The notes beneath the pieces were generated by a model. The model worked only from the letters and a program-made list of their open reading frames with translations. It had not been told where the DNA came from and made no database searches. From Actinomycetes bacterium (GTDB taxonomy: Bacteria; Actinomycetota; Acidimicrobiia; Acidimicrobiales; Acidimicrobiaceae): DNA of 43,050 bases. Of the stretch, positions 20,193-37,928 are shown piece by piece (within the stretch, counting starts at the first letter, position 1; every line of letters starts with the position of its first letter). The stretch lies in contig JAKAZZ010000021.1 of assembly GCA_021826315.1 (NCBI GenBank), forward strand, positions 1 through 43,050. Reading direction: 5' to 3'. A program made the translations under genes and the position numbers.

Positions 20193-20195
20193 GTG

Positions 20196-21961: not shown

Positions 21962-22258
21962 GCTACTTTGGTACCTGCTCTCGCACCCGGACCTGCGCCG
22001 GGTGAACAGTGAAAACTAGTCAAATGGAATCATCCTTCGGCATTTTTGGAGAACAGTTCTGAAGTTGATAGCGAAGGTATCGATAAGGTAGAGCGTTCCC
22101 ACAAGGATATTTGGTGGTCCTAGCCAGACTCTTCTCGAACTTAACCCCGTCGACTCTAAGCCGTGCGATCACCTCCTACCGCCTACTAGACCTTACGAGG
22201 GTACATTTCGAACGAGCAAGTCGTGCGCAACCCAAGCGAGCAAAGCGGTTCAGCATGA
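21962..22258. other. Gap between two gene remnants
   Basis: No frame is convincing. The stretch connects two plus-strand remnants and is probably part of the same decayed insertion. I see no clear terminal inverted repeats or target duplication. Confidence 0.3.
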
Positions 22259-22540
22259 AGCAGCGCACATTTAGCTCAGCGTTACGAAAACGACTCAGCA
22301 GCATACGAACTGGCCTCAGAATATGAAATTGACCGCCGAACCGTTTTATTGCATCTAAGGGACTAAGGAATCACGTTGTGTCGGCAGTCCCCGAATAACG
22401 AAATGGTTCGGCGCTCCTTTACAGGATTTTCCCAAGCAAATGTTGGAGAGCAAATCGTCGTCTCGGCAGATACGGTACTTAACGATCTTTGGCAACGGGG
22501 AGTCGATATGCGATCCCCCCACAGGGGGAAGTGTCCGTGA
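22259..22540 (+). pseudogene. Remnant of a recombinase/resolvase C-terminal HTH region
   Basis: The frame encodes HLAQRYENDSAAYELASEY, then EIDRRTVLLHLRD, a TAA at 22364, and continues in the same frame with GITLCRQSPNN and later VVSADTVLNDLWQRGVDMRS. This tandem helix-turn-helix pattern (RYxxGxxxYELAxEFxIxRxTVxxHL, then a second SADTV..L..RGV copy) is characteristic of serine-recombinase-associated DNA-binding tails in actinobacteria. The catalytic domain, start and one codon are lost. Confidence 0.6.
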
Positions 22541-22778: not shown

Positions 22779-25502
22779 TCATTGCCACACGTTTCTGCCG
22801 CTTTTCTTCTTCGGAGTGAGTCCACGCCTTGCAGATAATAGAGCTACATCCTTCAGGCTAGTATTGCGCTCTAGCTTGGCCAGGATCGACTGTTGAGTCT
22901 CTGGCGTCCAGAAAATTCGGAGTTTCTCTCGCGCTCGCGTGATTGCCGTGTAGAAGATGCTGTGCGTCACATCCTCCTCATTCGCATCAGTTATGACGAC
23001 TTTCACGGAGTCATATTCGAGGCCCTGCGCCTTGTGGATCGAGACGGCATAGGCAATCTGAAAGGGTACGGTTGCGTTGCTCTGTTCACCGTCTTCGTCG
23101 CCATCGCCGGACTCGAAGACATCGAATCGTACGGTCGAACCCTCGACCCAACTGAGGTCATCAAAATTCCAGGTGTCCAGTTCCGTGACAGGGCGATCAA
23201 GCTCGACGTCGAAGGTCACCTTCCCTATGGATGCGGAAATACTGACGATTCGACCCTTGAGGTTGTTGTAGATGAGCCGTTTGAAGCGGTCAGAATCACT
23301 AAACAACACCGGGTCGCCCACCTTGAAAGTAGTTACGCCCCAAGTCACCGCGTCACCGGTGTTGCTACTTTGCAGGAATCGGTTGATGTTGTTGATGCCG
23401 TAAAGCCCGTCATAGTTGAGACAGAGGACGATCTCGTCCTTCTCTTGCGCCTGAAAAAGAGAACCATCTAGTACTGAGGAGTAACCGTTTGACGCAAGGG
23501 CCTCGGCGATATCGTCGTCCATGTTCCGCACTTTCGACCACAGGTCTAGAAGGTCCACATTCTTTGTTCGGAACGGAATGGTTAGTTCGAACACTGAAGT
23601 TGCGGGGATAAAAGAGCTAATAATCCCGAACCAATTGCCGAACTGAATCGATTCAATCTGGAAGACGTCGCCAACAAGAACGATGAGCTTGAAGGAAGTT
23701 GATTCCATGATTTTTAGAAGATCAGCATTGCTGACGGTACTGCATTCATCTATGAAGAGCACGTCGTAATCCGTGACATCGCCCCGCCTCAACTGACTGG
23801 CAATCGTGCGGAACGTGGTGTTTTGAGAGTTCACACGGCGGCTTAGGTTGTCGATGGCCGGGTGAGTCTGTGCGAGAAATAGTTTCGGATTCTCGTTGAA
23901 ATAATTGGCGATGTGATTGACCATCGTCGATTTACCTGTACCGGCTGCTCCGTAAATTACTGCAACTCTTGACTGGGCGAACAATTGCTTGAGTGCTTTC
24001 TCCTTGAATGGATCATCGATTGTGAGCGAGGTCTGACCTAGCCACGTTTCGACAGCGACCGAATACCCAGCTACCCCTGAACTCGCGTACTCCTGCATCT
24101 TCTCGATGATGGCAACGGTTCCGTCTTCATATCCTTGGACGAAGGAATGGTCTTGGGCGAGTACCAGGTCTCTAGCTGGACGGTTCGTGGAATAGAGCTT
24201 GCTATTGTGGGCCGCGACTAACTTGCTTACGTCCCCAAGGTCTTCCAATTCGGCAATGGGCGTATAGAGGATGCCTCGGTTCTCGATGCTGTTCTTCACC
24301 CGCCGCGCGAGTAGTTCGTGGGTCCGACCTGAGATGTCCAAACTTTCCGCCAAATCCGAGAATCTTGGGTTGTGACCGATGAGCGATGTGCAAAACGGCA
24401 TCGTGTCGAAGGGGATGCATCCATAGGCCACCCTGAGATTCGAGAGTCTTCCACATTCATCAGTCGAGAACTGTTGCTTAATGATTCTGTTATTCATTTG
24501 CAACATCAGATAGCGAAGAACGTTGCAGCCGGGAGACTTTGCCTGAACAATCTTGCGCGCCGTGTCCAGCACACCATAAATCGGAGACTTTCGCGTCTTT
24601 TGCAACACCGCTACCTTTACCTGATCATACTCGGCATCCGGCAGATCTATCAGGTCCAGGAGACTTGATGCCGTGGTCGTGAGGTGGTTCATCAGGTTGC
24701 GATATTCGGCACTTCCGGTTTCCGCCTTTATCATCGGCCCCAGCAGTCTCGAGAAGTTGTCGAACTCGCAGGGACGAACAGAGACCTCCCACGCTCGGAT
24801 GATCATGATTGGCATCGTGTTGCCGAGTACTTCAATCGAGTCACTTGCCAGGGCGATTTTCGCGGCGTAGTTGATTGTTATGTCGATGTCAGTGAATGCA
24901 ATAATCCTATCAGTCTTGCTCATCCGATCAATCGGCATCGAAAACGTAACTTCATAGTAGATTCGTCCCCCCACAAAGAAGGGGCGAGCATTCTGAATGT
25001 AGTACCGCGCACTCTTCTCGCTCGTTGACGTGCTCAGAATGCGATCATCGATACGCGAGGCAATCTTTTGGTGGTACTCGCGCAGGGACGGATCAAGGTC
25101 GACGGGAAAATCTTCCAGGTTCGCGAGGATGTCCAGTTGACAGTGGCTCTTCACGAGAGTCCGGAGTCGAAGCAGATGCTCGAAGTACTTGAGCATTAGC
25201 CGTTCAGAGGAATCGCCGTCAAGCGTGTAGTGCGAAGCACTGATCTTGATGAAGTCATGAAATCGCCGAAGCTGTTTGAGTTGCCCCGTGGCGCGTACGT
25301 GGGTAAGTGCCGCTTCGATGGCTTTGTAATCAAATTCGGTTGTCCCGGCGTTGGTATGAATGCGAACTGCTATCCCTTCAACGAGGTTTCGTAACTGAGA
25401 CAACACGATTTGAGACAGAAATGCTCGATCCTGCTCGTGGGCACCGATAGCCTTGGTAATCACTTCGTCGGCATTTTGGATCTGTAAATCTACCGATGCC
25501 AT
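22779..25502 (-). CDS. Large SF1 (RecD/UvrD-like) helicase of the defence operon
   Basis: The 907-residue protein has a roughly 480-residue N-terminal region that I do not recognise, then a superfamily 1 helicase core. Core motifs are Walker A GAAGTGKST (near residue 516), motif II LFIDECS, motif III region LVGDVFQ, and the C-terminal AYAVSIHKAQGLEYDSV and YTAITRARE motifs of UvrD/RecD-like enzymes. It would translocate on DNA with ATP. It starts 39 bp after the restored DUF2130 stop and is the last gene of the minus-strand run. Pairing with a coiled-coil nuclease-like protein suggests a nuclease-helicase defence module, which is inference. Confidence 0.85.
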   Translation of the reverse strand: MASVDLQIQNADEVITKAIGAHEQDRAFLSQIVLSQLRNLVEGIAVRIHTNAGTTEFDYKAIEAALTHVRATGQLKQLRRFHDFIKISASHYTLDGDSSERLMLKYFEHLLRLRTLVKSHCQLDILANLEDFPVDLDPSLREYHQKIASRIDDRILSTSTSEKSARYYIQNARPFFVGGRIYYEVTFSMPIDRMSKTDRIIAFTDIDITINYAAKIALASDSIEVLGNTMPIMIIRAWEVSVRPCEFDNFSRLLGPMIKAETGSAEYRNLMNHLTTTASSLLDLIDLPDAEYDQVKVAVLQKTRKSPIYGVLDTARKIVQAKSPGCNVLRYLMLQMNNRIIKQQFSTDECGRLSNLRVAYGCIPFDTMPFCTSLIGHNPRFSDLAESLDISGRTHELLARRVKNSIENRGILYTPIAELEDLGDVSKLVAAHNSKLYSTNRPARDLVLAQDHSFVQGYEDGTVAIIEKMQEYASSGVAGYSVAVETWLGQTSLTIDDPFKEKALKQLFAQSRVAVIYGAAGTGKSTMVNHIANYFNENPKLFLAQTHPAIDNLSRRVNSQNTTFRTIASQLRRGDVTDYDVLFIDECSTVSNADLLKIMESTSFKLIVLVGDVFQIESIQFGNWFGIISSFIPATSVFELTIPFRTKNVDLLDLWSKVRNMDDDIAEALASNGYSSVLDGSLFQAQEKDEIVLCLNYDGLYGINNINRFLQSSNTGDAVTWGVTTFKVGDPVLFSDSDRFKRLIYNNLKGRIVSISASIGKVTFDVELDRPVTELDTWNFDDLSWVEGSTVRFDVFESGDGDEDGEQSNATVPFQIAYAVSIHKAQGLEYDSVKVVITDANEEDVTHSIFYTAITRAREKLRIFWTPETQQSILAKLERNTSLKDVALLSARRGLTPKKKSGRNVWQ

Positions 25503-25541
25503 TGACTACTCATCTCCAGTGCGCCCATCTGAGTCGTCCGC

Positions 25542-26890
25542 CTAGTTCTTCGCTAGCCGGAGATTGTAATCAGAGTCGAGCAAGGCTTCCTTTGTCTTCT
25601 GGAGATGGTCGATGGTTTTGTCAATTTCCTCGATGGTAGTCTTGAACTTCTTCGATGTCAAGTTGCAGTTTCTTGCAAAGCCACTCTGATCTCATCGAGC
25701 TCGCTCTCGAAGTTAATAATGTCTATGTTCTGTTCCCGAACCCTTGCGAGCTCCGTCTTGTACGGCAGCGTACCCTGTGCCGCATTCCGCAGAAGGTTGA
25801 TAATCTGAATAAAGAACCGCGGACGAAAGATATACATCTTTGAAAAGCGGTGGGAAACATCGACGATACCCGCATTGTAGAGCTCGCTGTCCGGCTCGAG
25901 GAGCGACACGAGCACGGCGTATTCGCAGCTCTTTTCGTTACGGTCTTTATCAAGTTTCCTGAGGAAATCCTCGTTTTTCTTCTTCGTTGCTGTCATATCG
26001 CTCTCGTTCTTCATCTCGAACATGATGGAAATGAATTCGGTGCCAGATTCGTCTGAATCACGGAAGATGTAGTCACCTTTGCTACCACCTCGGACACCAG
26101 AGTCCTTCTCGAAATATGCCCGTGGGAAGAGGGTCGCTCGCAGACGGTTGAACTCAATTTCGCAATGCTGCTCAAGAGTTTCGCCGACCATCTTCGTCAA
26201 CAGCTTCTCCTTTATGTCCTTGAGGCGTTCAATTGCGTCATCTCGGTCCCTCAGCTGCGTTTCGTACCTGTCCTTTAAAGATTTCTCCTCAAGTTGCCCC
26301 TCTAGCACCACCCGCTCAAGGTTGTTCTTGAGCGCATCGCATTGTTTTTCGACAACGGCAACTGCCTCGTTAACAGCGAGTTGCTTCACAACCTCGGTCG
26401 ACTTGAGTTCGGACTTGAGACGCTCTACCTCGTCTTTGCGTGTCGCCTCCTCGAGCGCCCCGCCAATAGTAGTGTTGCACCGTGTCACAGCTATCAGCTC
26501 GACGGCGAATGTCTTGAGCATGTCGCACCCCATCTGCATTACAGTGGCTTCGTCTTTCACAATTTCGTGAAAGCATTCGGCCTCAGAAACGCCAATTCCA
26601 AGCGGATTGCGGCGATTATCGTTGTCACACAGTACCTTCGCAAGTTTCGCAAGATCGGAAATGATCACAGCAGTCGTGAACACGCGGTTGGTACAACCGT
26701 TAATGGTTTCCTCGGACTGACCCGAAAACCGGCGAGTCTGGGCTATGTAGGTCCGTTGTACTGTATTGATCTGATCGTTTATCAGTCTGCGGTTGAAGCC
26801 AAGGCCGGAGACGGCCATTACAAAGGGTTGTCCAGACCGGGTGTTGATCGGCACTTCCTCAACCCAGACAACTGAGTGGTAGCTTTTCAT
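25542..26890 (-). pseudogene. DUF2130 coiled-coil/PD-(D/E)XK protein with a C-terminal frameshift
   Basis: The open frame (410 residues, stop at 25658) has an unfamiliar N-terminal part (1-150), a coiled coil (about 150-245) and the DUF2130 nuclease-like domain with GDYIFRD and ISIMFEMKNE (the E-x-K pair). It stops after LDEIRVALQETAT. In another frame the sequence continues as SGFARNCNLTSKKFKTTIEE and DKTIDHLQKTKEALL, ending in NLRLAKN, which is the classic DUF2130 C-terminus, with its stop at 25542. One missing base near 25680-25690 explains the break. Restored, the protein would be about 449 residues. Whether the truncated form works is unknown. Confidence 0.82.
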
Positions 26891-26893
26891 GGG

Positions 26894-27718
26894 TCACAGC
26901 TTTCCACTGAGCGCCTCCAGGTCTATAAGTGCGCCGCGCAAGACTTGTTGCGCGATTAGCGCAGTCTCCATTCGTGGTTCAAAAGACTCCTTTAGCTGCT
27001 GACGGGGGTGGATATAGTTCCGAAAGTTTCGAACGTGCTCGGCATGACGCGCGATGTCCTCGCTCAAGACCCTGAGTTCCCGTGCGACGGCGATCAGCTC
27101 TCCAAGCTTCCACTCCTGCACCGGCTTGACCGTTCCCCGTATGCGCGGCGCCGCAGTTGCAGCCGTAAAGGTCGCAGCCTGGGCAACCGCCAGGTCCATA
27201 AGCAAGCCTTCGAGCGTCGAGCCGACGAGGAACACAACCGCCAGTGGTGCCTTCGCTTCAAGGCAGCGCTCAATCTCCCCTAGTCGCGCCGCGACGACTT
27301 GGGCTGACGTTAGCACTGAAGGCAGGGACGCCAGATCTACTCGCGTGAAGTCCTTTGCAAGGAACGCCGTATTCGCCGGATCAGCGTTTGAGGTGGGCAC
27401 GGATAACTGTGCAATAAGCTCGTCGTGGATTGCGAGTTCGAATGGCTTTGGCTCTACACCAGCGAGCTGCTTCGCGACGCGCCAACACTCCAGCAGCTCC
27501 AGGTTCAACTTCGCAACCTCTTCCTGCGACTCCTATTGCCAGATGGTGCGTAGCAAGACCGCTTTTGAACCACTCCCGTATTTCTCATACGGATCAAATC
27601 CAATAGCCGTCTCCACAAAATCAGCGAATCGTGCATTGCTGAAATCCAGCACGTAGCCACCGCCCATTTCGAAAATCGCCTCAAGCTTGCGCTTAGTCGC
27701 GTTGTCGAGAACAGCCAT
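26894..27718 (-). pseudogene. Abortive-infection/HEPN-like protein interrupted by an amber codon
   Basis: Two open frames (27718-27533 and 27508-26894) lie in the same register, separated only by a TAG at 27535-27533 followed by ESQEEVAKL. Read through, the product is 274 residues. The N-terminal part has EMGGGYVLDFSNARFADF and GSGSKAVLLRTIW, a pattern I associate with AbiJ-type N-terminal domains. The C-terminal half ends in a helical region with EHVRNFRNYIHPRQQ, resembling the Arg...His motif of HEPN ribonucleases. The ATG overlaps the Cap15 stop (TAATG), so it belongs to the CBASS unit. An internal re-start near 27508 could still make the HEPN half alone. Confidence 0.7.
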
Positions 27719-28344
27719 TATTCCGCGCCTCGGAACAAGGCCGCCGCGTCATCGAAGTCGTCGACAATCTTCAAACGACGCTTCTCGAAGCGAAGCTCGC
27801 CCTTGCTGTCGCGGTCCGTCCAGTATCTGCCTGCCAGGCGATGAGCAGGCGTACCCGAAATTTCGAGCGCGACAGAGCCGTGGTGCATCGGACTACGGCT
27901 CCGCACATTAGCTCGGGGGCGATTCAAGTAGAGGTAATCAAGCACCGCTACGCCGTCTTGCTGGGCGACCCGTGCGAGAGTCGATGATGAGCACGACTCA
28001 CGCGTCACGAGCCGGATGGTTACGACGGTGGAGGTTTGGCGGACGATCAGATAGGCCTCTACGGGGTCGATGGTTTTTCCGGTTGCGGGATCGACGTACA
28101 TAGACGAGATGGTGCCTTGCCATGTCCCCCGAACGCTTCGAGGAACACTCGGGATTCGCTGAACGGGCGGCAAGCGCCAGAGCCAAAGGTCATACACCGT
28201 CAGCAATAGTGTCGACACCAAGACAGCTCCGGAGAAGTAACGCAACCAGACGAGATTTAACTTGCCACTCGTGCCCCACGAGCTCACGGCAAAAACCCCG
28301 ATCACCACGGCCGCCGTCACTTTGACGATGATCGCACGGTTCAT
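27718..28344 (-). CDS. cap15: CBASS effector Cap15 (2TM plus beta-barrel nucleotide receptor)
   Basis: The 208-residue protein has two N-terminal membrane helices (about 7-24 and 34-54) and a beta-rich domain with the Cap15 hallmarks: VRGTWQGTISS, the LIVRQTSTVVTIRLVT strand, YLYLNRP, HHGSVALEI and LAGRYWTDRDSKGELRF. Cap15 proteins bind the cyclic nucleotide made by the partner CD-NTase in the beta-barrel, oligomerise and disrupt the inner membrane, killing infected cells. The gene overlaps the CD-NTase stop by 4 bp (ATGA). It is intact, but its activating enzyme is disrupted. Confidence 0.88.
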   Translation of the reverse strand: MNRAIIVKVTAAVVIGVFAVSSWGTSGKLNLVWLRYFSGAVLVSTLLLTVYDLWLWRLPPVQRIPSVPRSVRGTWQGTISSMYVDPATGKTIDPVEAYLIVRQTSTVVTIRLVTRESCSSSTLARVAQQDGVAVLDYLYLNRPRANVRSRSPMHHGSVALEISGTPAHRLAGRYWTDRDSKGELRFEKRRLKIVDDFDDAAALFRGAE

Positions 28345-29301
28345 GACTTAAACCCCAGGTAGTTCCAACCAGCCTTCACGAAGGCTCGCGCATCCTCGCG
28401 GCTCCACTTCTGCCCAGGCGCGAAGAGGAACTTGCACTGGTTAACCTCAGGCCAACGAGCGCTCTCCTGGTCTGGCTCAGGCCCGTCGAGTTCGTGGAAG
28501 ACGTGACTAATGATTCCCTTGACGGTGTCGATCCAAGTTGATTGCATGAGGATCGAGTCAGGCACGTTGTAGACGAGGCATTCGATGAAGAACGACGGCA
28601 CCTCACGGTGTGCACCGTCATAGACCATCGCATTTTCAAGTCGCTTCATGGCGATGGGGCTTCCATCGGCAGCTACTACGTTGACCGTCATAGACCATCG
28701 CATTTTCAAGTCGCTTCATGACCCGGACAGCCTGCTTGTAACGCAGATTGCTGCGTTTGTTCTTGGCGACGCCGTTGGTGCGCTGCTGCTCTGGATAGTT
28801 GATCAGCGAGCCACCGTCGGTTTTGAAGACCTTTGAACCCTCGCGATAAGTACCCGAGTTGAAGTAATAACGGAAGTCGAAACAAGGCACAACATCGGCC
28901 TCCACGCGAGCGGAACTCGAATTGATCCTGAAAGCGGTTGATCCTGAGGAGTCGACCTGACCCGAGAATTTCGCCTCTAAAGCGGCCTTAAGCTCGGACC
29001 GAAGGACGCTTGGTGTCCAAGGTCCCTTGTATGACTCACCCGGCACCTTTGCGCCCGGTGTCTCTTCTTTCCAGTAGAAGAGGTTCGTGTATTGAACTGC
29101 AATATCCACGTCGCTATCGGAGCGAACATTTGTGTTGTTTGCATAAGAACCCTTCGCATAAACCTTCATTGAGCAACCCTTGAATACGGAGTGGTTTTCG
29201 ACGGCTTCTCGGATCATCCGGACAGTTCGCTTTTGTTTCTCCTTCTCAGTGTCGCTTGACGGGCCAGTCCAACCCCTGAGCTTGTCTTCAAGTGCCGCCA
29301 T
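28341..29301 (-). pseudogene. cdn: CBASS CD-NTase (cGAS/DncV-like) split by a 70-bp duplication-type insertion
   Basis: The first frame (29301-28636) has the nucleotidyltransferase signature GSYANNTNVRSDSDVDIAV (catalytic Asp64 and Asp66) and a third Asp at about 136 in VEADVVPCF. It runs to VRVMKRLENAMVYDG and then becomes nonsense. The second frame (28709-28341) repeats IAMKRLENAMVYDG and continues with the true C-terminal part (REVPSFFIECLVYN to NYLGFKS). Deleting 70 bp between the direct repeats gives one 296-residue enzyme, the normal CD-NTase size. It would make a cyclic di- or trinucleotide signal for Cap15. The start is 5 bp after the hsdR stop, with aggggaa as ribosome site. As written the C-terminal half is out of frame. 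Confidence 0.88.
28614..28720. repeat. Perfect 37-bp direct repeats flanking a 33-bp spacer inside the CD-NTase gene
   Basis: The 37-mer beginning accgtcatagaccatcgc occurs at 28614-28650 and 28684-28720 with no mismatch. The spacer 28651-28683 is unique in the window as far as I can see. The repeat period is 70 bp, which is not a multiple of three, so one copy plus spacer causes the frameshift in the gene. Confidence 0.95.
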
Positions 29302-29306
29302 CGTGG

Positions 29307-32300
29307 TTATTCCCCTGATCGCTCCACGCCTAGTACAAAAAATCGCTCGAAATATTCGCCGAGTCGTGCGAGTACATGCTGCTTCTTCGCACTGTGACCA
29401 CCGTCGGAGGAAAAGCGCGAGACTGGTGGGAGGATCTCTGTAACAGCAGTTCCGGCAGTTGAAATAGTACCATCACGAAAAGCCCGCTCGATAAACTTCT
29501 TTGTCTCATCTGGTTTTAGTCCTTCTTGAGCAATGATGTCCTCAAGTTCAGCAGTTCGACTTTTATCAACATAGACACGCCACTCATCGTCAATGTTGCC
29601 GGTGGCGGTCACTGAATCAACGAATGCCATAATGAGCTCTTTCTTGTTGCGCAACGAGATACTCGAATCGATGGAACGCTTGATCTGTGAGATCGCCTCC
29701 GCCTCCTTTTCTGCATCATCACCTTGGGTATCACGCCATTTCTGGACGAGCATGAGGACATAGTCGACGTTTATCTCAACTTGTTTTATTAGCTCAATCT
29801 CAAAGACGATGTCATCGTTGATTGACTCCTTCTCGGCATCGTTGACACGCCGAAATTCTGCATAGAGGTCAAGATATACGCTGCGGTAGTCTTGGCTTTG
29901 GCGATCGGTCAGGATCTCGTGGCCGTCAAACTCGTCAAACGAGGTCAGAATGTTTTGCAAGCGGAGAATTGAACCAAAGAGCGCAATGAATTCCTTCTGT
30001 GCGGCTTCACCGATAATCTGTGTGCCTAGCGGGTACTTCGTAAGTAGTTCTTGGGCGCGTTCGGAATACTCTTCGTAATAATCTTCATAGGGTTTGAGAA
30101 GGACGATTCCGCCTGCATCTTTATTGCCAAATAAAGCGATTGCTTCATTGGTCTCTTCTTCTAAGTTGCGAAACGAGACAATGTTCCCGTAGGTCTTCAC
30201 TGAGTTCAATATTCGATTGGTACGTGAATAAGCCTGTAGGAGTCCGTGGTTGACTAGGCGTTTGTCAGCAAAAAGCGTGTTTAGGGTCGTGGCATCGAAG
30301 CCAGTGAGAAACATGTTCACTACGATAACGAGGTCAATTTCGCGATTCTTCAGCCGAAGTGACAGGTCTTTATAGTAGTTCTGAAACTTATCCGATGATG
30401 TATCAAAACTTGTATCAAAGTAAGTGTTGTAGTCATTGATTGCATCGTCAAGGAAGTCCCGAGATGGCCGGTCAAGCGCATTGGTTTCGAAACCTTCTTC
30501 GTCAAGGAAGTCGTCACCGATGTCTTCATTGGGAGCATAGGAGAAGATGATACCTATCTTGAGTTTGCGATCTGAGGGCAAGTTCGTTTGCTGTCTCTTG
30601 AACTCGGCATAGTAAAGTTTCGCCGCGTCAATTGAAGCCGTTGCGAAAAGCGCGTTAAAACCATTGAGACGCTTTCCCTCAATTGCATAATGTTCGGCAC
30701 GTTTTGTCTTTTGGTTAAAATGCTCAAGTATGTAGGCAACAACTTGACCGAGTCTCTCTTTTGCGAGGAGTGCACGCTCGGTATCAATTGCCGAGACCCG
30801 CTTGTCGTCTAAACGTTCAGATACCTTAATGGTGTTCACGTAGTCAATGCGAAATGGGAGGACATTTTTATCGTTGATTGCATCCACGATTGTATAAGTA
30901 TGGAGCTTGTCTCCAAAAGCCTGCTCGGTGGTTTTTAGTTTGGGGTTTCCACCCTTTCCGGCATTTACGGCAAAAATAGGGGTGCCAGTAAAGCCGAACA
31001 GGTTGTAGCGCTTGAACGCCTTAGTGATAGATCTGTGCATGTCACCAAATTGTGAGCGGTGACACTCATCAAAGATAATGACAATGTGTCCGCCATAAAT
31101 GGCGTGTCCTCTATTGCCGGAGACGAAGTTAGACAATTTTTGGATGGTTGTGATGATTATTTTTGCGCTCGGGTCCTCTAATTGCTTTTTTAGGACGGCA
31201 GTTGAAGTGTTCGAGTTTGCTGCGCCCTTTTCGAAGCGATCGTACTCTCTCATAGTTTGATAATCGAGGTCTTTGCGGTCCACGACAAAGAGCACTTTTT
31301 CTACATCGCTGAGCTTTGATGCGAGCTGGGCAGCCTTAAAGCTTGTAAGAGTTTTGCCCGAACCGGTGGTATGCCATATGTAGCCACCAGCGCCAATTGT
31401 ACCGAGTTGTCTATAGTTCGTCGAGATCTCAATCCTTTGTAGAATTCTCTCTGTCGCAACGATCTGATACGGACGCATAACTAGTAAATGCTTTTCGGCA
31501 GTTAGTACGCTATAACGAGTCAGGATATTGAGCAAGGCGTGCTTCGCAAAAAATGTCTTAGTGAAGCCTACAAGATCCTGGATAGGCCTATTGGTGGCAT
31601 CTGCCCACCATGAGGTAAATTCAAATGAGTTAGAAGTCTTGCGAACCTTCTTCGATCCAGCACTCTCGTCGAGGTGTTGGCGCCGGGTGGTGTTCGAATA
31701 GTACTTCGTCAATGTGCCATTACTAATAACAAAGAGCTGCACATAATCAAAGAGGCCAGAACCTGCCCAGAAGCTATCTCTCTGGTAACGATCGATCTGG
31801 TTGAATGCTTCTCGAATATCAACGCCACGACGTTTGAGCTCGATATGAACTAGAGGAAATCCATTAACAAGTACGGTTACGTCATAGCGATTAGAGCGCG
31901 CTGCTCCACCTTGAACTTTGTCAACCTCGTACTGATTTATGACCTGTAGACGATTGTTATGTATATTCGTCTTGTCTATCAGCATGATGTTTTTTGTTGA
32001 GTTGTCGTCGCGCTTTAGAACTTGGATATGGTCCTCTTGGATGCGTTTGGTCTTCTCACCTGGACCCTCGTTAGCCCCAGAGATTTTGTCGCTAAAGAAT
32101 CTCTTCCACTCACCATCTGAGAAACTGATTGCATTTAAGATTTCGATCTGGGTGCGGAGATTACTTATGAGCTGTACTTCACTCGTAATCGGAAGGTACT
32201 CATAGGCTTGCGACTGTAGGAGTCTGATAAATTCTCGCTCTAAGTCCGCTTCTGACTGGTAGGAAGTTTCGGTTGCTACATCCGAGATGAATTCGGCGAC

Positions 32301-32360
32301 AACTGTACTTTCTGAACTTACGACAATTGGCTCGTATCGGCTTGCCTTAGCGTCGGTCAC
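29307..32360 (-). CDS. hsdR: Type I restriction enzyme, R subunit
   Basis: The 1017-residue protein has the N-terminal PD-(D/E)XK nuclease (YDVTVLVNGFP, then HIELKRRG), followed by SF2 translocase motifs: Walker A WHTTGSGKT (near residue 335), DECHRSQFG (near 430), LFGFTGTPIF and the QAYSRTNR arginine-finger motif. A helical C-terminal region binds the methylase core. It translocates DNA and cuts unmethylated DNA far from the target site. The start is GTG, overlapping the hsdS stop by 4 bp (GTGA). The frame is intact. Confidence 0.96.
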   Translation of the reverse strand: MTDAKASRYEPIVVSSESTVVAEFISDVATETSYQSEADLEREFIRLLQSQAYEYLPITSEVQLISNLRTQIEILNAISFSDGEWKRFFSDKISGANEGPGEKTKRIQEDHIQVLKRDDNSTKNIMLIDKTNIHNNRLQVINQYEVDKVQGGAARSNRYDVTVLVNGFPLVHIELKRRGVDIREAFNQIDRYQRDSFWAGSGLFDYVQLFVISNGTLTKYYSNTTRRQHLDESAGSKKVRKTSNSFEFTSWWADATNRPIQDLVGFTKTFFAKHALLNILTRYSVLTAEKHLLVMRPYQIVATERILQRIEISTNYRQLGTIGAGGYIWHTTGSGKTLTSFKAAQLASKLSDVEKVLFVVDRKDLDYQTMREYDRFEKGAANSNTSTAVLKKQLEDPSAKIIITTIQKLSNFVSGNRGHAIYGGHIVIIFDECHRSQFGDMHRSITKAFKRYNLFGFTGTPIFAVNAGKGGNPKLKTTEQAFGDKLHTYTIVDAINDKNVLPFRIDYVNTIKVSERLDDKRVSAIDTERALLAKERLGQVVAYILEHFNQKTKRAEHYAIEGKRLNGFNALFATASIDAAKLYYAEFKRQQTNLPSDRKLKIGIIFSYAPNEDIGDDFLDEEGFETNALDRPSRDFLDDAINDYNTYFDTSFDTSSDKFQNYYKDLSLRLKNREIDLVIVVNMFLTGFDATTLNTLFADKRLVNHGLLQAYSRTNRILNSVKTYGNIVSFRNLEEETNEAIALFGNKDAGGIVLLKPYEDYYEEYSERAQELLTKYPLGTQIIGEAAQKEFIALFGSILRLQNILTSFDEFDGHEILTDRQSQDYRSVYLDLYAEFRRVNDAEKESINDDIVFEIELIKQVEINVDYVLMLVQKWRDTQGDDAEKEAEAISQIKRSIDSSISLRNKKELIMAFVDSVTATGNIDDEWRVYVDKSRTAELEDIIAQEGLKPDETKKFIERAFRDGTISTAGTAVTEILPPVSRFSSDGGHSAKKQHVLARLGEYFERFFVLGVERSGE

Positions 32361-33667
32361 ACCAAAGCCTCTTCGAACGTCAATAGCCGGTCTCGATAAT
32401 GTTCATATTGCTTTCGGCGAGCAGCTAGCTCAGCGGGGAGGCCGGTAGATAGGTCGTTTACGAGTGCATCGAACTTGTCAAGTATATCGACGATTCGGTC
32501 TTGCTCTTCTCGTGAAGGTATGGGAATCGCTATTTTGCCAAGACTCTCGCCAGATATACGACGTACCTTGGTTCCTGTGATGTAGCGCTTCTTGTGCGAC
32601 TGGAATTCGTCGGTCTGAAAGAAGTACGAAACATACTTTGGCGCAAGAGTGTGACGGAATATGAATGCATCTCCGCTGACAGCAACTTGTTCCTCGCCAA
32701 TCCACGCAACAGCTTTACCAACGGCCTTGTCGTCTTCGCTCGTCGTAGCAATCACAAGATCACCAGGGCGGGCTTTACGAGATCTCCCTGCCAACTCTGC
32801 GTCAACAAAAGACACAACTTCGGTAGCGGACGTACCGTAATAAGTATGTACCTGGCCATAGTGAATAGCGCCGATTCCCGAGGAGCGTAAATCTGCTTTC
32901 TGAATCCCGTTACCCCGTACAAACTTCCCAACACTACCCATCGGAATCCTCCGTACACCCCCCGTTTCAGGGAAGCTCAACAATTCATCCCGATAGTAGG
33001 CATACTGACGACGACGGGCTTCCAGCTCTGCTTCCAGCTCTGCTTCCAGCTCTGCTTCCAGCTCTGCTTCCAGCTCTGCTTCCAGCTCTGCTTCCAGCTC
33101 TGCTTCCAGCTCTGCTTCCAGCTCTGCTTCCAGCTCTGTAAACGTATCTAGTATTCGTACGATCTCGTGCTGGACTTCGATAGGAGGGACGGGGATTCGG
33201 AACTTCTTGACTGCATTGTCCGAAATAGCCGGATAGCTTGCGCCGCGCTCGTTTGCCTCGATATAGGTACTGAAATCCGAAGTACCGAGCAAGTGAAATA
33301 GAAAATTGGTCAGAATGAGGTTCGACTTTGGACGCAGGATGCAGTAGCCAGTGCTCGCAATCTGACCATCATGCTCGGCAGAGATTATCGCGTATCGTTT
33401 AAGCGTCGGTCGCGTCGTACCAAAGATCACATCTCCCTCGCGGACAATCTGCTGAGCCCGACTGGGCGCGTTTGCATTCGAAATGGTCTGGGTCTCCGTG
33501 ATGGCATGGGTGTTTCGGTCGACCGAAGTGAGGTCGATGTACTGAAACGCCTCTCCAGCAACACTTGACCATCGGATCGTCGTGCTACGCTGAACGACTG
33601 AACCGATTGACTCGAAGCGAACACGCTCTGGGCACATCAGGTTGATGAGATCATCAATCCGACTCAT
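32357..33667 (-). CDS. hsdS: Type I restriction specificity subunit with long ELEA repeat linker
   Basis: The HsdS protein has two target-recognition domains: TRD1 over about residues 1-150 and TRD2 over about 235-375. Each is followed by a coiled-coil conserved region (VRILDTFTELEAELEA and VDILDKFDALVNDLST), and both halves close with the RRxQYxxYRDxLLxF motif. The first spacer contains ten perfect Glu-Leu-Glu-Ala units (about residues 178-217), encoded by 12-bp repeats. In EcoR124-type HsdS a difference of one four-residue repeat here changes the spacing of the bipartite DNA site. The start overlaps the upstream gene by 4 bp (ATGA). Intact. Confidence 0.95.
   Translation of the reverse strand: MSRIDDLINLMCPERVRFESIGSVVQRSTTIRWSSVAGEAFQYIDLTSVDRNTHAITETQTISNANAPSRAQQIVREGDVIFGTTRPTLKRYAIISAEHDGQIASTGYCILRPKSNLILTNFLFHLLGTSDFSTYIEANERGASYPAISDNAVKKFRIPVPPIEVQHEIVRILDTFTELEAELEAELEAELEAELEAELEAELEAELEAELEAELEARRRQYAYYRDELLSFPETGGVRRIPMGSVGKFVRGNGIQKADLRSSGIGAIHYGQVHTYYGTSATEVVSFVDAELAGRSRKARPGDLVIATTSEDDKAVGKAVAWIGEEQVAVSGDAFIFRHTLAPKYVSYFFQTDEFQSHKKRYITGTKVRRISGESLGKIAIPIPSREEQDRIVDILDKFDALVNDLSTGLPAELAARRKQYEHYRDRLLTFEEALV
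33022..33138. repeat. Ten 12-bp tandem repeats in hsdS
   Basis: The core ccagctctg recurs every 12 bp ten times (first at 33022, last at 33130) without mismatch, with ctt between copies. On the coding strand each unit reads GAG CTG GAA GCA (last unit GCC). Because the unit is four codons, slippage keeps the frame and only changes linker length. Confidence 0.97.
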
Positions 33668-34122
33668 GCCGTGACCTCGGTGATGTCGGTCGACGGGTTA
33701 GCTTGCGAAATCCGCGATTCAATCGGAAAGATAACAGCGAAGGCGAACTGATAGCGGTGCTCAGCGATGTATGCCTTGAGCTTCTCCTCGTCTGCGCTGC
33801 CATGTGCAGTACTGCTCTTTTTCGCCTCGATCACTACGAGGTTGTTCTTAGTGTTCCTGTGATGGATAACAATGTCCGGAAAGACGGTGCGGGCATCTGT
33901 GTCGTTGGTGGAGATGTTTTGAACCGACAACTGCTTCGGGATGTCTCCGTCACGGTTGTATTCACAATCCACGTGCCATTCCTGGAATTCTGACTGGAGA
34001 TATTCGGCCAGCTTGTGGGTGATGCTTCGCTCATTTGCATTAAGTTCGAGCAAGGCAAAATCGTTGCGGAGCAACCTGCAGTACGCCGAATGTAACTTTC
34101 GAATCACTTCAGAGTGCTCCAC
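33664..34122 (-). CDS. Small PD-(D/E)XK-like protein between hsdM and hsdS
   Basis: I start it at GTG 34122 (VEHSEVIRKLHSAY), which has ggaggg 7 nt upstream inside the hsdM end, rather than at the longer frame (34191). This gives 152 residues and a 14-bp overlap with hsdM. It contains NERSITHKLAEYL, then HVDCEYNRDGD and the nuclease-like core FPDIVIHHR...LVVIEAKKS (D...E-x-K). Stand-alone proteins of this type occur near defence genes; the function is unproven. It could be a nicking or accessory nuclease of the R-M complex. It overlaps hsdS by 4 bp. Confidence 0.75.
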   Translation of the reverse strand: MEHSEVIRKLHSAYCRLLRNDFALLELNANERSITHKLAEYLQSEFQEWHVDCEYNRDGDIPKQLSVQNISTNDTDARTVFPDIVIHHRNTKNNLVVIEAKKSSTAHGSADEEKLKAYIAEHRYQFAFAVIFPIESRISQANPSTDITEVTA

Positions 34123-35686
34123 GTTCAGAACCCTCCAAGTCCGCGACAATCGCATCGATCTGAGTGCGGAGCTCCGATTGCCTCTCAACAATCCTGGCTA
34201 TCTCGGCGTTCAGCACAGTGATGTCAACGGCCTCGCTAGTGTCTTCTCGCACAACATACGAGGACACCGCAATGTTGTAGTCGTTAGCTTGTATCTCTTC
34301 AAAGGACACGAGCTTTGCAAAATAGTCTTCAGATTTGCGCTCCGTAAAGGCGCTAAGGACTTTTTGCCGATTGGACTCAGCGAGCTTATTCTTATTGCCT
34401 GACCGCACGAACTCAGAAGAAGCATCTATAAACAAGATGGAGTTATCCGTCTTCGACTTCTTGAGAACCAGAATACAGGTAGCAATCGAAGTGCCAAAGA
34501 AGAGATCTGGCGGGAGCTGGATAACTGTATCTACGTAGTTGTTGTCAATCAAGTATTTGCGGATCTTCTGCTCCGCACCCCCTCGATAGAGCACGCCAGG
34601 AAACTCGACAATTGCAGCCGTACCGTTTACTGCCAGCCAGTGGAGCATGTGCATAGTGAAGGCTAGATCAGCTTTGGATTTAGGCGCGAGCACACCGGCT
34701 GGAGAATAACGTGGATCGTTGATGAGCAATGGGTTGGCATCACCCTCCCATTTAGTTGAGTATGGGGGGTTAGAAACAATTGCCTCGAAGGGTTCTTCAT
34801 CCCAGTGTGCGGGGTCTATGAGTGTGTCCCCGTGAGCTAGGTCAAACTTCTCGTAGTTGATATCGTGTAAAAACATGTTTATTCGAGCGAGGTTGTAGGT
34901 CGTCAGATTGATTTCCTGTCCAAAGAAGCCCTGTCGGACGTTCTCTTTTCCCAGTACCTTAGCGAACTTCAATAGCAAGGAACCGGAGCCGCAGGCGGGA
35001 TCGTAGACCTTGTTTACGGAAGTTTTTCCAACTACTGTGATCCGAGCAAGTAGTTCGGAGACCTCCTGCGGGGTGTAATACTCGCCCCCAGACTTACCCG
35101 CATCCGATGCGTACATCTGCATTAGGTACTCATACGCATCGCCGAAGGCGTCGATGGTGTGATCGGAGAAGTTGCCAAGACCGAGATCGCCGATTGCGTC
35201 GAGGAGCTTTACTAGCTTCTCGTTGCGCTTCGCTACCGTTTGTCCCAGCCTTGCGCTATTGACTTCAAGATCGTCGAATAGGCCTTTCAGATCATCTTCT
35301 GAGACTGTACCAACTGCGGAACCTTCGATGTTCTTGAAGACCCGTTCCAATGTTTCGTTTAGGTTCTCGTCTTGGGCCGCATGTTTGCGAACGTTGACAA
35401 AGAGCTCGCTTGGAAGGATGTAGAAGCCCTTTTCGGCCACCGTCTCCTTTCGTCCAAACTCTGCCTCAGGGTCGCTCAGCTTGGCAAAGTCGAAGTCGGC
35501 CTGTCCAGCCTTGTGCTCGCCTAGGTTTATGTAGGCGGTTAGGTTTTCCGAAATGAAACGGTAGAAGAGGATGCCGAGCACGTAGGTTTTGAAATCCCAC
35601 CCGTCAACGCTGCCACGGAGGTCGTTGGCGATGCGCCAGATGGTCTTGTGAAGCTCTGCTCGCTGGGTTTCTTTAGTTTGGCTCAT
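34109..35686 (-). CDS. hsdM: Type I DNA methyltransferase, M subunit
   Basis: The 525-residue N6-adenine methyltransferase has the HsdM N-terminal helical domain (LHKTIWRIANDLRG), the SAM-binding motif DPACGSGSLLLKF and the catalytic NPPYSTKW. With HsdS it methylates the host target site and so protects it from HsdR. The C-terminal coiled region (about 485-520) would contact HsdS. It overlaps the upstream mrr-like gene by 4 bp. Intact. Confidence 0.96.
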   Translation of the reverse strand: MSQTKETQRAELHKTIWRIANDLRGSVDGWDFKTYVLGILFYRFISENLTAYINLGEHKAGQADFDFAKLSDPEAEFGRKETVAEKGFYILPSELFVNVRKHAAQDENLNETLERVFKNIEGSAVGTVSEDDLKGLFDDLEVNSARLGQTVAKRNEKLVKLLDAIGDLGLGNFSDHTIDAFGDAYEYLMQMYASDAGKSGGEYYTPQEVSELLARITVVGKTSVNKVYDPACGSGSLLLKFAKVLGKENVRQGFFGQEINLTTYNLARINMFLHDINYEKFDLAHGDTLIDPAHWDEEPFEAIVSNPPYSTKWEGDANPLLINDPRYSPAGVLAPKSKADLAFTMHMLHWLAVNGTAAIVEFPGVLYRGGAEQKIRKYLIDNNYVDTVIQLPPDLFFGTSIATCILVLKKSKTDNSILFIDASSEFVRSGNKNKLAESNRQKVLSAFTERKSEDYFAKLVSFEEIQANDYNIAVSSYVVREDTSEAVDITVLNAEIARIVERQSELRTQIDAIVADLEGSERGAL

Positions 35687-36582
35687 TCAAAAAAATCCTC
35701 ATCTACATCTACGATCTGAAGAGTACGTTTAACTTGGACTCCAACTCGGTAGCGAATCATAAGCTCGGCTAGTCTAGATCCATCTATGAGCACCACTCGG
35801 GTTGACACGCTCTTGGCGTATTCAATTGCTCCAGAGCTGAAACGGCCCGTAGTAATAAATACGCCTTGGTTGGCTTGCTGCCCTTGCAACGCGCCCACAA
35901 ACGACTGAATGTCTGGGCGCCCTACTGAGCTATCCAAGGAATAGCGTTTTGCCTGGATGTAGACACGACTTAGCCCGAGCACATCTTGATCAATGATGCC
36001 GTCAATACCTTCGTCGTTAGACAGCTGTGTCCTTGTAGCCTTGGTATCAGCGCCGCCATAGCCCATGGCGACCACTAAATCAACGACGGCCTGCTCGAAG
36101 AAGGCGGGATCCTGAGAATGCGAACGAACAAGGAGATTACTCTCCACTTCGTCATTAATGCGCGCGATACCTCGTTCGACGAGCTCGTGGGGGTCAAGTT
36201 TGTCAGGTGCAGGTGCACTTACGGCTGTGGGTAAGTATTTCTTGCGGCCATCGTCATAACCCTCGATCAAGCGAAGATCTGCTTCGGTAAGTAAATTTGG
36301 ATGTGTCTCGAGCAGTATGCTGCCTGATTCTGTGATCGAGTGATGGCCACGAGAGGGTCGCATGATCGCATTTGCCTTGACGAGATAGGTGATCGCCCAG
36401 CTAATTCGATTTTCGAATCTCCGCTCGCCTGAATCAAGTACCTCAGCACGCTGCTCATCATTAAGATGGGTTTCCTGAGCTACAAGATCGTAAAGCTCTC
36501 GCCGGCTGAGAATCTTTCCGTCAGAAAGAACTTTCAAGGTCGGAACCATGAACTGGTCCCATGTAGGCAGTGCACTTGTCAC
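35683..36582 (-). CDS. mrr: Mrr-family restriction endonuclease
   Basis: The protein has about 299 residues from the GTG at 36582 (VTSALPTWDQFMVPTLKVL), preceded by aggag. The longest frame (36660) adds 26 residues that look non-native. An N-terminal winged-helix Mrr_N domain (about 1-90) is followed by a linker and a C-terminal PD-(D/E)XK domain with NDEGIDGII and YIQAKRY (Asp and Gln-x-Lys catalytic residues, the Mrr variant). Mrr cuts DNA carrying foreign methylation. The GTGA overlap with the small upstream ORF and the ATGA overlap with hsdM indicate translational coupling. Confidence 0.9.
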   Translation of the reverse strand: MTSALPTWDQFMVPTLKVLSDGKILSRRELYDLVAQETHLNDEQRAEVLDSGERRFENRISWAITYLVKANAIMRPSRGHHSITESGSILLETHPNLLTEADLRLIEGYDDGRKKYLPTAVSAPAPDKLDPHELVERGIARINDEVESNLLVRSHSQDPAFFEQAVVDLVVAMGYGGADTKATRTQLSNDEGIDGIIDQDVLGLSRVYIQAKRYSLDSSVGRPDIQSFVGALQGQQANQGVFITTGRFSSGAIEYAKSVSTRVVLIDGSRLAELMIRYRVGVQVKRTLQIVDVDEDFFE

Positions 36583-36845
36583 GGTTGTCTCCTGGCGACC
36601 GAAACAGTCCCGCCCGTAGCCCGAGAAAGCAACGCCATGTTCTTGATTAAGGTCTCCCAAGGAAGCTTAATATTGTATCTGTTGTAGTCGACATTAACGA
36701 AACCTTCAGGATTGTTCACGATGCCAGCAATGTGTTTGCACTCACTCGGCTCCTGGTTGCCCCTAAGTGCATCAGCAGTATCCCAAAGCCGTTGTTCGAG
36801 CGTCTTTGCTGGCTTCGTCGCACTCTTGCGAGGCTGGCCCGTCAT
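36579..36845 (-). CDS. Small ORF starting like an HsdM N-terminus, first gene of the defence operon
   Basis: This 88-residue frame begins with a Lys-rich leader, then TLEQRLWDTADALRGNQEPSE, nearly the textbook start of HsdM of another subfamily. After CKHIAG it changes to unrelated sequence (FVNVDYNRYNIKLPWETLI and TGGTVSVARRQP). It looks like a deletion fusion between the start of a lost hsdM and something else. Its stop overlaps the mrr start by 4 bp (GTGA), so it is probably translated. It could be only a leader that couples translation of mrr. Confidence 0.6.
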   Translation of the reverse strand: MTGQPRKSATKPAKTLEQRLWDTADALRGNQEPSECKHIAGIVNNPEGFVNVDYNRYNIKLPWETLIKNMALLSRATGGTVSVARRQP

Positions 36846-36905
36846 CAGTGTTGTTCCTGCGGAAATTGTTCAAACTGGCGCCTTGATTTTTTCATAATTT
36901 CCCTT

Positions 36906-36914
36906 ATTATAACA
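36906..36914 (-). promoter_or_regulatory. Extended -10 promoter of the defence operon
   Basis: On the minus strand, TGTTATAAT (36914-36906) is a perfect extended -10 box (TG-N-TATAAT), about 60 nt before the first ATG of the run at 36845. The matching -35 position (taatta-like) is poor, which is normal for extended -10 promoters. No other equally good promoter was seen at the gene junctions downstream. Confidence 0.6.
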
Positions 36915-37088: not shown

Positions 37089-37631
37089 CTACCGTTCCCG
37101 AGCATTACCACTGTAAAGCCCGCCATACAAATCATGGAACTCAACGCTTGCGCCTCGTTCGTCGCCAAAATCAAGCGTTTTACCAATGTGGTGAGTTCCC
37201 GCTCGTTTAAAATACGTGAGGCCACGGTGGCTCCAGATGGTATCTGGGCGATCGCCAATGAAGACTGCTCCGAAGGATGCAAATCTAGTAGGTTCGTGAA
37301 AAGCCTGACTGTGCTCCGTGAGTGCACCAGGGGTGCCAAGATCTCGATCAGCTGCTAGTCGAAAATTGAGATCATAGGTTTGGCCTCGCCGCATCGGCTC
37401 TTTGTACCAGAACTGATGAGCAAATCTTGCCCCGATACGTTTTGTCTTGACAGTAAACTCCCCTTCGGCGATTGGTCGTCCTGGATAAGAACTGCGGATA
37501 GATATCAAGTCGGCTTCATCGAACGTTGTAATCAAACGGTGCCACTCCCTATTCTCTTGCCAAGAACGGTTGCGGACAACCGTCAAAATACGAGCAGACT
37601 GTTGGTTAAAGCCGTTGTGTGATTGCGGCAT
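37089..37631 (-). CDS. Hypothetical protein beside the tRNA
   Basis: The 180-residue protein matches no family I recognise. It is rich in aromatic residues, His and Arg, and looks beta-rich (FTVKTKRIGARFAHQFWYK, YDLNFRLAADRDLGTPGAL, FASFGAVFIGDRPDTIWSHR). No signal peptide, membrane segment or catalytic motif is evident. It lies 45 bp after the end of the fragment at 37677-37928 on the same strand, so the two may once have been one transcription unit. It ends about 170 bp before the defence-operon promoter. Confidence 0.55.
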   Translation of the reverse strand: MPQSHNGFNQQSARILTVVRNRSWQENREWHRLITTFDEADLISIRSSYPGRPIAEGEFTVKTKRIGARFAHQFWYKEPMRRGQTYDLNFRLAADRDLGTPGALTEHSQAFHEPTRFASFGAVFIGDRPDTIWSHRGLTYFKRAGTHHIGKTLDFGDERGASVEFHDLYGGLYSGNARER

Positions 37632-37660
37632 TGCAAATCCAGTCGGAGATTTAGGATACC

Positions 37661-37675
37661 AACCCGTAACGGGTT
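37661..37675. repeat. Short perfect palindromic hairpin
   Basis: aacccgt and acgggtt flank a single base. The element sits just past the stop of the minus-strand fragment ending at 37677 and 30 bp before the next start. It may be a weak 3' hairpin or a protein-binding palindrome. Confidence 0.4.
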
Positions 37676-37676
37676 G

Positions 37677-37928
37677 CTAATGAAGGTCGCGTAAGGACGA
37701 TTCTTCTCCGTTGGCAACAGCTTTTACCTTGATAACGTGATTGTCGACGTAGTGTTGACGTCGATCCTTGAGATAGGACATGCTCTCGATCGCAGGGGCG
37801 AGTCCAAAGATGTTGAGCAATATCTGAGGGTATGAATTACGAGTCGACTCGCGATCTACGTGTTGAATGGTTGCTACATACGGCCGCCAAAATTTGTTGA
37901 ACCGAGGAAGCTTGAACCGTTGATAGTT
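37677..37928 (-). pseudogene. 5'-truncated gene fragment abutting the tRNA-Ser 3' end
   Basis: The frame runs 83 codons from 37928 with clear protein character (YQRFKLPRFNKFWRPYVATI, YPQILLNIFGLAPAIESMSY, YVDNHVIKVKAVANGEES) and ends in TAG. There is no usable start near its beginning: a TGA lies directly upstream and the tRNA CCA end is 10 nt away. It therefore looks like a gene whose 5' part was cut off at the tRNA. I do not recognise the family. An internal ATG (ESM) could start only a very short peptide. Confidence 0.55.

Follow-up and report, generated by a model that had tools for sequence, protein, structure and literature searches.

The 43,050-nt window analyzed here carries on its minus strand a run of defense genes that opens with a type I restriction-modification (R-M) locus and continues, directly behind the restriction subunit gene hsdR, with a two-gene cyclic oligonucleotide-based antiphage signaling system (CBASS). 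This run is part of an island at a tRNA-Ser gene. It seems likely that a type I R-M operon forms its backbone, with an exchangeable slot for defense modules behind hsdR, and the CBASS now found in that place has a broken cyclase gene in this assembly. The source organism appears to be an Acidithrix-related actinobacterium, with A. ferrooxidans probably of the same genus, and much of the evidence comes from comparing the window with that genome and with other members of the family.

The initial annotation had described positions 22779-36845 as an eleven-gene operon in which R-M and CBASS are fused. The co-directional run is real: all of the named open reading frames (ORFs) lie on the minus strand, and the domain names hold in profile searches (Mrr, HsdM, Methylase_S, HsdR, SMODS, Cap15_CD_rec, DUF2130, and SF1 helicase). 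HsdM, HsdS, and HsdR are all open and carry their family domains, as expected of a type I R-M system. The junction on which the proposed fusion depends is also as described, with 5 bp between the hsdR stop (29307) and the ATG of the CD-NTase (29301), and co-direction with a tight junction is what a single operon would show. The count of eleven separate genes, by contrast, reads through lesions: the first ORF is a stump of hsdM and three further genes are broken. Three of the other reported junctions exist only across these lesions, namely the one between the CD-NTase and Cap15 (the CD-NTase ORF ends early and its remainder lies in another frame), the 1-bp overlap of Cap15 with the HEPN-like gene (whose ATG at 27718 meets an in-frame TAG), and the 39-bp gap between the DUF2130 gene and the helicase (the open DUF2130 frame stops at 25658 and its continuation, to 25542, is in another frame). 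Coordinates of all features are collected in Table 1.

EcoR124-type hsdR genes of this kind were found in 6 of 42 family genomes, and the gene that follows differs from one to the next. In the window it is the CD-NTase/Cap15 pair. In G412, whose hsdR is 86% identical, a CapV-type patatin phospholipase and a CD-NTase with SMODS and AGS_C domains follow with a 4-bp overlap (PADLOC E=4.5e-104 and 3.6e-172, respectively), a CBASS of a different kind from that of the window. An ATPase with a partial Ppl match overlaps hsdR in G404, and the candidate PDC-S06 overlaps it by 1 bp in G403; PDC-S19 stands next in G416, and in G414 there are two proteins without a defense match (both look membrane-like by eye). 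Taken together, a defense-annotated gene comes next after hsdR in five of the six loci, with five kinds represented, and in four of these six the start of the following gene is no more than 8 bp from the hsdR stop. The diversity of these neighbors fits a module slot better than it fits a dedicated partnership of R-M with CBASS. Further, A. ferrooxidans has a type I core other than that of the window, and there too hsdR overlaps an intact CD-NTase by 4 bp; this CD-NTase is 74% identical to that of the window (the closest found among the best 80 relatives), and its Cap15 is 56% identical. CBASS thus recurs directly behind hsdR in other genomes, with 4-bp overlaps in both A. ferrooxidans and G412, and pure chance juxtaposition is therefore unlikely as a general account.

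Remnants of another R-M core, of the T1RH type, point in the same direction. The ORF that had been counted as the first gene of the run is 92% identical to A. ferrooxidans HsdM over residues 1-39 and divergent afterwards; at the DNA level the match covers 36730-37850 (76.7% over 1129 bp), reaching from the upstream gene across the promoter as far as codon 39. A second stump, the tail of an hsdR fused in frame to the DUF2130 ORF, is 45% identical to residues 882-994 of A. ferrooxidans HsdR (E=3.5e-24). When the EcoR124-core loci of the family were searched with the T1RH core, the hsdM start (to residue 18-65) was recovered in five of them (the window, L140, L141, L142, and L143) and the hsdR end (residues 882-1043) in the window and L140; the sixth locus, G414, showed no T1RH hsdM stump in the leader comparison. 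Clear stumps were limited to hsdM residues 1-65 and hsdR residues 882-1043. All other matches were of the HsdM-to-HsdM or HsdR-to-HsdR kind at 24-29% likeness (33-36% over two short stretches of L142), apart from a single weak match to HsdS (E=8e-4), also in L142. This confinement to the start of hsdM and the end of hsdR suggests that R-M cores and downstream modules have been swapped.

Orphan hsdR tails are not peculiar to the window. Further downstream in both A. ferrooxidans and G404, the stop of such a tail overlaps gajA by 4 bp, and a purine-rich, Shine-Dalgarno-like stretch precedes the gajA start inside the tail (Gabija was called on the A. ferrooxidans pair, to which the G404 genes are 93% and 90% identical). 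G404 has another orphan tail ahead of a PDC-S19 gene. Within the family, 8 of 14 hsdR-tail matches lie outside full-length frames (some at contig edges); a 4-bp overlap with the following gene, which several intact hsdR genes also show, is retained in three of the eight and in a fourth that lies at a contig edge, and L200, from the wider order, adds one more tail with this overlap. Similar AAA ATPase genes were seen behind an orphan hsdR tail (L180, G452) and behind an intact hsdR (L189, G396), in both cases with a 4-bp overlap.

The leader of the run is conserved among relatives together with the candidate promoter that it bears. The extended -10 motif reported upstream of the whole run, TGTTATAAT, is present at 36914-36906; TGNTATAAT is retained in five of six aligned leaders, and the sixth has TGTTACAAT. 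No promoter had been seen at the hsdR/CD-NTase junction, and no minus-strand promoter-like site is listed nearby. Over 22000-38100, promoter-like sites (14, against 12.8 +/- 4.0 in shuffles) and terminator-like sites (13, against 15.5 +/- 4.0) are both at background. Relatives also conserve the short ORF of this leader (36895-36845), which may act at the level of translation. The best minus-strand promoter-like match of the region (25661-25633, TTGACA-17-TACCAT, 10/12) precedes the helicase, whose transcription may therefore begin separately.

The chromosomal setting is that of an island. About 18.5 kb of defense genes (about 19481-37937) separate tRNA-Ser(TGA) from a gene that we take from its sequence to be hisS, and DNA alignments to the flanks of relatives break at 19395 and 37938. 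In G402, of the same genus, only about 400 bp lie between the two (in L174, tRNA-Ser ends at 3675 and hisS is met at 4077), and the DNA on the hisS side is homologous to 13875-19395 of the window; this close relative thus presents the empty site that marks a tRNA-associated island. G403 carries a different island at the same tRNA-Ser/hisS site, and the AbiL pair of the window is found there too, at the far end. The related loci of A. ferrooxidans and G404 are at other sites, judged from contigs and flanks. That the window and A. ferrooxidans share one chromosomal site was considered and rejected, the match of A. ferrooxidans to the tRNA-Ser/pheA flank being on one contig (G396:C17) and its hsd locus on another (C78). 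What these two have in common is the hsdM leader and the CBASS pair; the insertion point differs as far as draft contigs tell.

Table 1. Features of the run, its leader, and the surrounding island, in the order of the minus strand and then outward (positions in the window)
Feature	Position	Strand	Basis
Extended -10 promoter-like motif TGTTATAAT	36906..36914	-	upstream of the run
16-codon leader ORF; its closing TGATG opens the hsdM stump	36845..36895	-	sequence and leader alignment
hsdM stump: codons 1-39 of a T1RH-associated hsdM plus unrelated sequence	36579..36845	-	92% to A. ferrooxidans HsdM
Mrr-type (type IV) restriction enzyme	35683..36582	-	Mrr_N, Mrr_cat; mREase_IV
HsdM	34109..35686	-	N6_Mtase, HsdM_N
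Small PD-Lambda-3_A-like protein, between hsdM and hsdS	33664..34122	-	PADLOC E=1.7e-36
HsdS	32357..33667	-	Methylase_S
HsdR, EcoR124 type, full length	29307..32360	-	EcoR124_C 1-260/260
CD-NTase (CBASS cyclase), broken frame	28341..29301	-	ORF 28636-29301 (221 aa) plus C-terminal part in 28341-28709
CD-NTase lesion, 70 extra bp	28614..28720	-	37-bp direct repeat plus 33-bp filler
Cap15-type 2TM CBASS effector, intact, 208 aa	27718..28344	-	Cap15_CD_rec E=1.1e-13; PADLOC 2TM E=2.5e-76
HEPN/AbiJ-like gene split by in-frame TAG (27535-27533)	26894..27718	-	name by likeness; no curated family match
T1RH-type hsdR C-terminal tail stump, in-frame fusion to the DUF2130 ORF	26465..26803	-	T1RH-like_C E=9.8e-14
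DUF2130 ORF, chimeric N-terminus	25658..26890	-	homologous continuation in another frame
SF1/RecD-like helicase	22779..25502	-	PADLOC candidate PDC-S53, full-length
tRNA-Ser (TGA), island flank	37938..38024	-	ARAGORN; flank homologous to that of G402 and of G403
Gene found upstream of hsdM in relatives, here 5'-truncated	37089..37850	-	tblastn residues 75-326, 78%
Remnant of A_rec gene (279 aa in A. ferrooxidans)	22111..22525	+	homology to the A. ferrooxidans gene
AbiL pair (RloA/RloB-like)	19534..21497	-	AAA ATPase 20196-21497, RloB domain 19534-20067
hisS, opposite island flank	18152..19480	+	homologous DNA in G402

From these observations a mechanism can be proposed. One leader promoter would drive the R-M operon (Mrr, hsdM, the small protein, hsdS, and hsdR), and the last position, directly behind hsdR, would be an exchangeable slot whose modules attach at the hsdR stop codon. 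Genes in the slot would be transcribed last and, because their start abuts the hsdR stop, possibly be translationally coupled to hsdR as well. Recombination within the conserved start of hsdM and end of hsdR would bring about the exchange. The slot of the window would then hold the two-gene CBASS, followed by the AbiJ/HEPN-like gene and by an older module (DUF2130 and the PDC-S53 helicase) that still opens with the stump of a lost hsdR.

Several observations weigh against this proposal. In two of the six family loci the gene after hsdR is not tightly joined to it (gaps of 171 bp in G416 and 61 bp in G414), the slot of G414 holds no recognized defense gene, and in four of the eight tail stumps the 4-bp overlap is absent. 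Some 40 bp ahead of the hsdR stop, within the gene, there is a weak minus-strand terminator-like site (stem 29363-29346, 5 pairs, followed by T-rich sequence), which may be genuine and bears on the idea of a single transcript. The excess of stumps from the tail of hsdR is unproven, and we dropped it as a statistical argument, because 4 of 10 matches to the head of hsdR in an N-terminal control also fall outside full-length frames, too near to the 8 of 14 for tails. A search for a direct repeat of the tRNA-Ser end yielded matches of at most 11 bp, and the only trace of an integrase in the island is a remnant that may be recombinase-like and matches no curated Pfam family, so the usual pair of integrase and att repeat is lacking. 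Given the draft status of the assembly, the CD-NTase lesion itself could be an assembly error. Two baselines further limit the claim: in genomes of the phylum outside the family, 2 of 10 loci with this EcoR124-type hsdR have a same-strand ORF of at least 60 aa within 20 bp downstream, and for T1RH hsdR such an ORF lies within 20 bp either way in 10 of 30 loci read (from 37 matches), although these were called by a simple ORF caller, some of the ten are likely spurious, and two are the next hsdM.

Could the run simply be ordinary defense-island clustering, a chance pile-up at a tRNA site whose tight spacing has no functional meaning? We find this doubtful, although it has points in its favor: the tRNA-linked island holds additional defense genes (AbiL) and several broken ones, and one slot of the family (that of G414) has no known defense gene. 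Clustering alone does not readily account for a slot position and tight overlaps that recur with unlike contents, two kinds of CBASS among them, nor for hsdR-tail stumps some of which keep their 4-bp overlap with the next gene.

The occupant of the slot in the window carries several marks of a CBASS. The SMODS match of the CD-NTase falls just under the cut-off (26.0 against 26.5 bits), and the residues of its GS...DxD motif, which is catalytic in CD-NTases, are invariant across eight aligned sequences (G51, S52, D62, D64, D66, and D136). The adjoining gene is an effector, Cap15, as it should be in a CBASS. In such systems the CD-NTase makes a cyclic nucleotide upon infection and Cap15 damages the membrane, and intact copies of this pair would be expected to do the same. 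A complete CD-NTase frame is missing: the ORF has 221 aa, whereas L003 and A. ferrooxidans (L010) each carry the two parts as one protein of 296 aa. The two frames are separated by a perfect 37-bp repeat (copies at 28720-28684 and 28650-28614, offset by 70 bp) with a filler for which we found no source; allowing up to 3 mismatches, it occurs once in the 2.8-Mb assembly. Among the 80 relatives described below, 72 passed a strict test for a single CD-NTase frame. The eight that failed comprise the truncated L058, the possibly broken L014 and L066, L068 on account of its start codon, and four (L069, L074, L079, and L085) whose C-terminal match is too weak to judge.

Because the CD-NTase is truncated, the CBASS of this assembly is probably inactive; and since the HEPN-like and DUF2130 genes are broken as well, the genome is unlikely to have a working suicide module. 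Open frames remain in the R-M genes, Cap15, and the helicase. Of the earlier interpretation, the recurrence of CBASS behind hsdR and the conserved leader stand, and a functioning suicide module probably does not.

An alternative is that the assembler created the 70-bp lesion and that the CD-NTase is intact. The assembly is a draft (110 contigs, 2.8 Mb, 89.92% complete), and a repeat enclosing unique filler is the shape that mis-joins can give. We nevertheless regard an artefact as unlikely: the HEPN-like gene (an in-frame stop) and the DUF2130 gene have independent lesions, and the hsdM stumps are common to other assemblies, both of which fit real decay.

A more specific idea, close to that of the initial annotation, is a dedicated fusion in which CBASS guards restriction and kills the cell when that first defense is overcome, the part that PrrC plays in EcoPrrI. 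By analogy such a guard is possible, and there are precedents in PrrC and DarTG2 (PMC3506569, PMC12255303). In three loci (those of the window, A. ferrooxidans, and G412), CBASS genes do follow hsdR tightly.

A survey of related CD-NTase loci (284 pattern matches, of which 259 were confirmed and the best 80 kept) bears on this. With five R-subunit queries, four of them taken from surveyed loci, and a threshold of E <= 1e-10, an R subunit of type I or III ends within 2.5 kb upstream on the same strand in 7 of the 65 loci having at least 3 kb of upstream sequence (L010, L015, L044, L050, L058, L065, and L069; raw counts without a significance test), leaving 58 without one. Downstream, an R match lies within 4.5 kb in 1 of the 66 loci having at least 4.5 kb, and this is the hsdR-tail stump of L010. 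A Cap15-like gene, on the other hand, stands next to the CD-NTase in most of the 80, as it does in all five plasmid regions read (from 51 plasmid records, all below 60% identity), where the HsdR of the window has no match. Given these counts, the broken CD-NTase of the window, and the non-CBASS content behind hsdR in four of the six family loci, a dedicated guard appears distinctly unlikely, and an exchangeable slot remains the reading that we prefer. That the CD-NTase lesion is instead a reversible off-state, with the 37-bp repeat as a phase-variable switch of the suicide module, is very unlikely: the repeat is perfect, its filler is otherwise single copy, and the neighboring hsdS also has a variable-number repeat, yet the CD-NTase is one open frame in 72 of the 80 relatives by the strict test, and the damage to the HEPN-like and DUF2130 genes looks like decay.

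Some of the surveyed loci deserve mention in their own right. In L058 (Sphaerimonospora, 9995-10546) a truncated CD-NTase of 183 aa lies behind hsdR and a YgjP-like gene with no Cap15 match after it, a second decayed CBASS behind R-M. L065 (Leucobacter) and L044 (Arthrobacter) combine a type III-like Res, CD-NTase/Cap15, and a similar OLD/AAA gene in differing order (of these genes, the Leucobacter Res and the Arthrobacter AAA gene were compared with Pfam). Nocardioides sp. Root190 (L055, 9053-10873) has two different CD-NTases in tandem ahead of the effector.

The genes behind Cap15 do not recur as a set with it in the relatives surveyed. The order Cap15/HEPN/DUF2130/helicase, a search for which had been suggested, occurs in none of the 80 CD-NTase loci (3.2 to 20.6 kb long), and neither the C-terminal part of the HEPN-like protein nor the DUF2130 domain nor the helicase has a match in any of them; L010 matches the DUF2130 ORF only in its hsdR-tail part, and L053 alone matches the N-terminal piece of the HEPN-like protein. 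This piece, of 61 aa, shares 48% identity with the beginning of a Promicromonospora protein (L053) that is intact, has 407 aa, and sits two genes past the CBASS pair of that locus. A firm assignment of the gene to AbiJ was dropped, its N-terminal piece having no Pfam match and its C-terminal piece only a DUF4145 match below the cut-off; "AbiJ/HEPN-like" is kept as a label by likeness. The DUF2130 continuation (25545-25673, in another frame) is 79% identical to an intact relative. The helicase matches PDLC05035 (PDC-S53) from residue 1 to 896 (profile 1-897/900) and has relatives at 55-63% identity. One genome (G062) has a T1RH hsdR followed by an AlbA_2 protein and a helicase of the same type (55%). 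Eight plasmid records of the helicase were found, and the three regions read show no match to the HEPN or DUF2130 proteins of the window.

Within the R-M core, HsdS has 10 perfect copies of a 12-bp repeat (33018-33138, an EAEL-type spacer) between its halves; exact copies number four in G404 and G416 and three in G412 and G414. In EcoR124-type enzymes such spacers change specificity. The HsdS of G403 (L142), G412 (L143), and G414 (L151) reads as two half-length ORFs; two PD-Lambda-3_A-like genes lie around hsdS in G403, and a single ORF of similar sequence is present in G414. Toward the edges of the island, the counterpart of the truncated gene at 37089..37850 is 327 aa long in A. ferrooxidans and has no Pfam family match. 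The A_rec gene, which we presume to be recombinase-like, is also found behind the module array in L010, L141, and L142, and a Pfam search of it gave only weak HTH matches below the cut-off. The AbiLii/RloB-like ORF (19534-20067) has a TTG start and 177 aa, as against 206 aa in G403, and may be 5'-truncated.

A broader idea can be offered tentatively, as one that is possible and that we hold with less than even confidence: the 3' end of type I hsdR may be a general accretion seam, at which immunity modules enter at the stop codon with overlapping starts, and a short tail may outlast the loss or exchange of an R-M core because it carries the ribosome-binding and coupling signal of the next module. 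If so, such operons would be stratified records of successive defense systems, and orphan hsdR tails would mark unknown defense modules. More immediately, tails that overlap the next gene by 4 bp could serve as bait in searches for new modules. The slot behind one conserved hsdR also amounts to a natural experiment, in which the R-M core and leader stay alike and the downstream module changes. It bears on an old question, raised in PMC3506569: does a functional link join immunity and suicide genes, or are they mere neighbors?

Among known systems, the closest to the pair in the window is type I (short) CBASS, with which it shares two genes with touching ends, a SMODS-type cyclase, and a Cap15 receptor domain; it departs from that system in its place, 5 bp from the end of hsdR, and in the broken frame of its cyclase. 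The EcoPrrI/PrrC locus, a type IC hsd locus with an embedded anticodon nuclease, resembles the run in having a growth-arrest gene in a type I locus, where growth arrest follows the inhibition of restriction (PMC3506569, PMC12707154); PrrC is a single, specific partner of the Hsd complex, whereas here the gene behind hsdR varies between genomes. The RptR-RMS-DarTG2-M48 island of enteropathogenic Escherichia coli likewise places a defense module inside a type I R-M run and ends in a metallopeptidase gene, to be compared with the YgjP-like metallopeptidase behind hsdR in L015, L050, L058, and L069 (assigned by Pfam in L015 and by sequence likeness in the others). Its DarTG2 lies between hsdS and hsdR, and the sections cited describe no exchangeable slot behind hsdR (PMC12255303). 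CoCoNuT superoperons are predicted to have R-M genes early and potentially suicidal genes last, with other genes and regulators and, in the text cited, no CBASS pair behind hsdR (PMC11090510).

The nearest forerunner in concept is the 2012 hypothesis that toxin genes in R-M loci are repeatedly replaced, which also named the Ymh and DUF4145 domains as R-M-linked; CBASS modules and hsdR-tail stumps do not appear in the passages cited (PMC3506569). A topical search of the open-access literature (subscription papers were not covered) gave no account of CBASS in such a slot, nor of orphan hsdR tails. Suicide genes linked to R-M are already known from PrrC and DarTG2, and what the present locus adds to them appears to be new: a probable exchangeable slot behind hsdR, with stumps of hsdR tails left in place.

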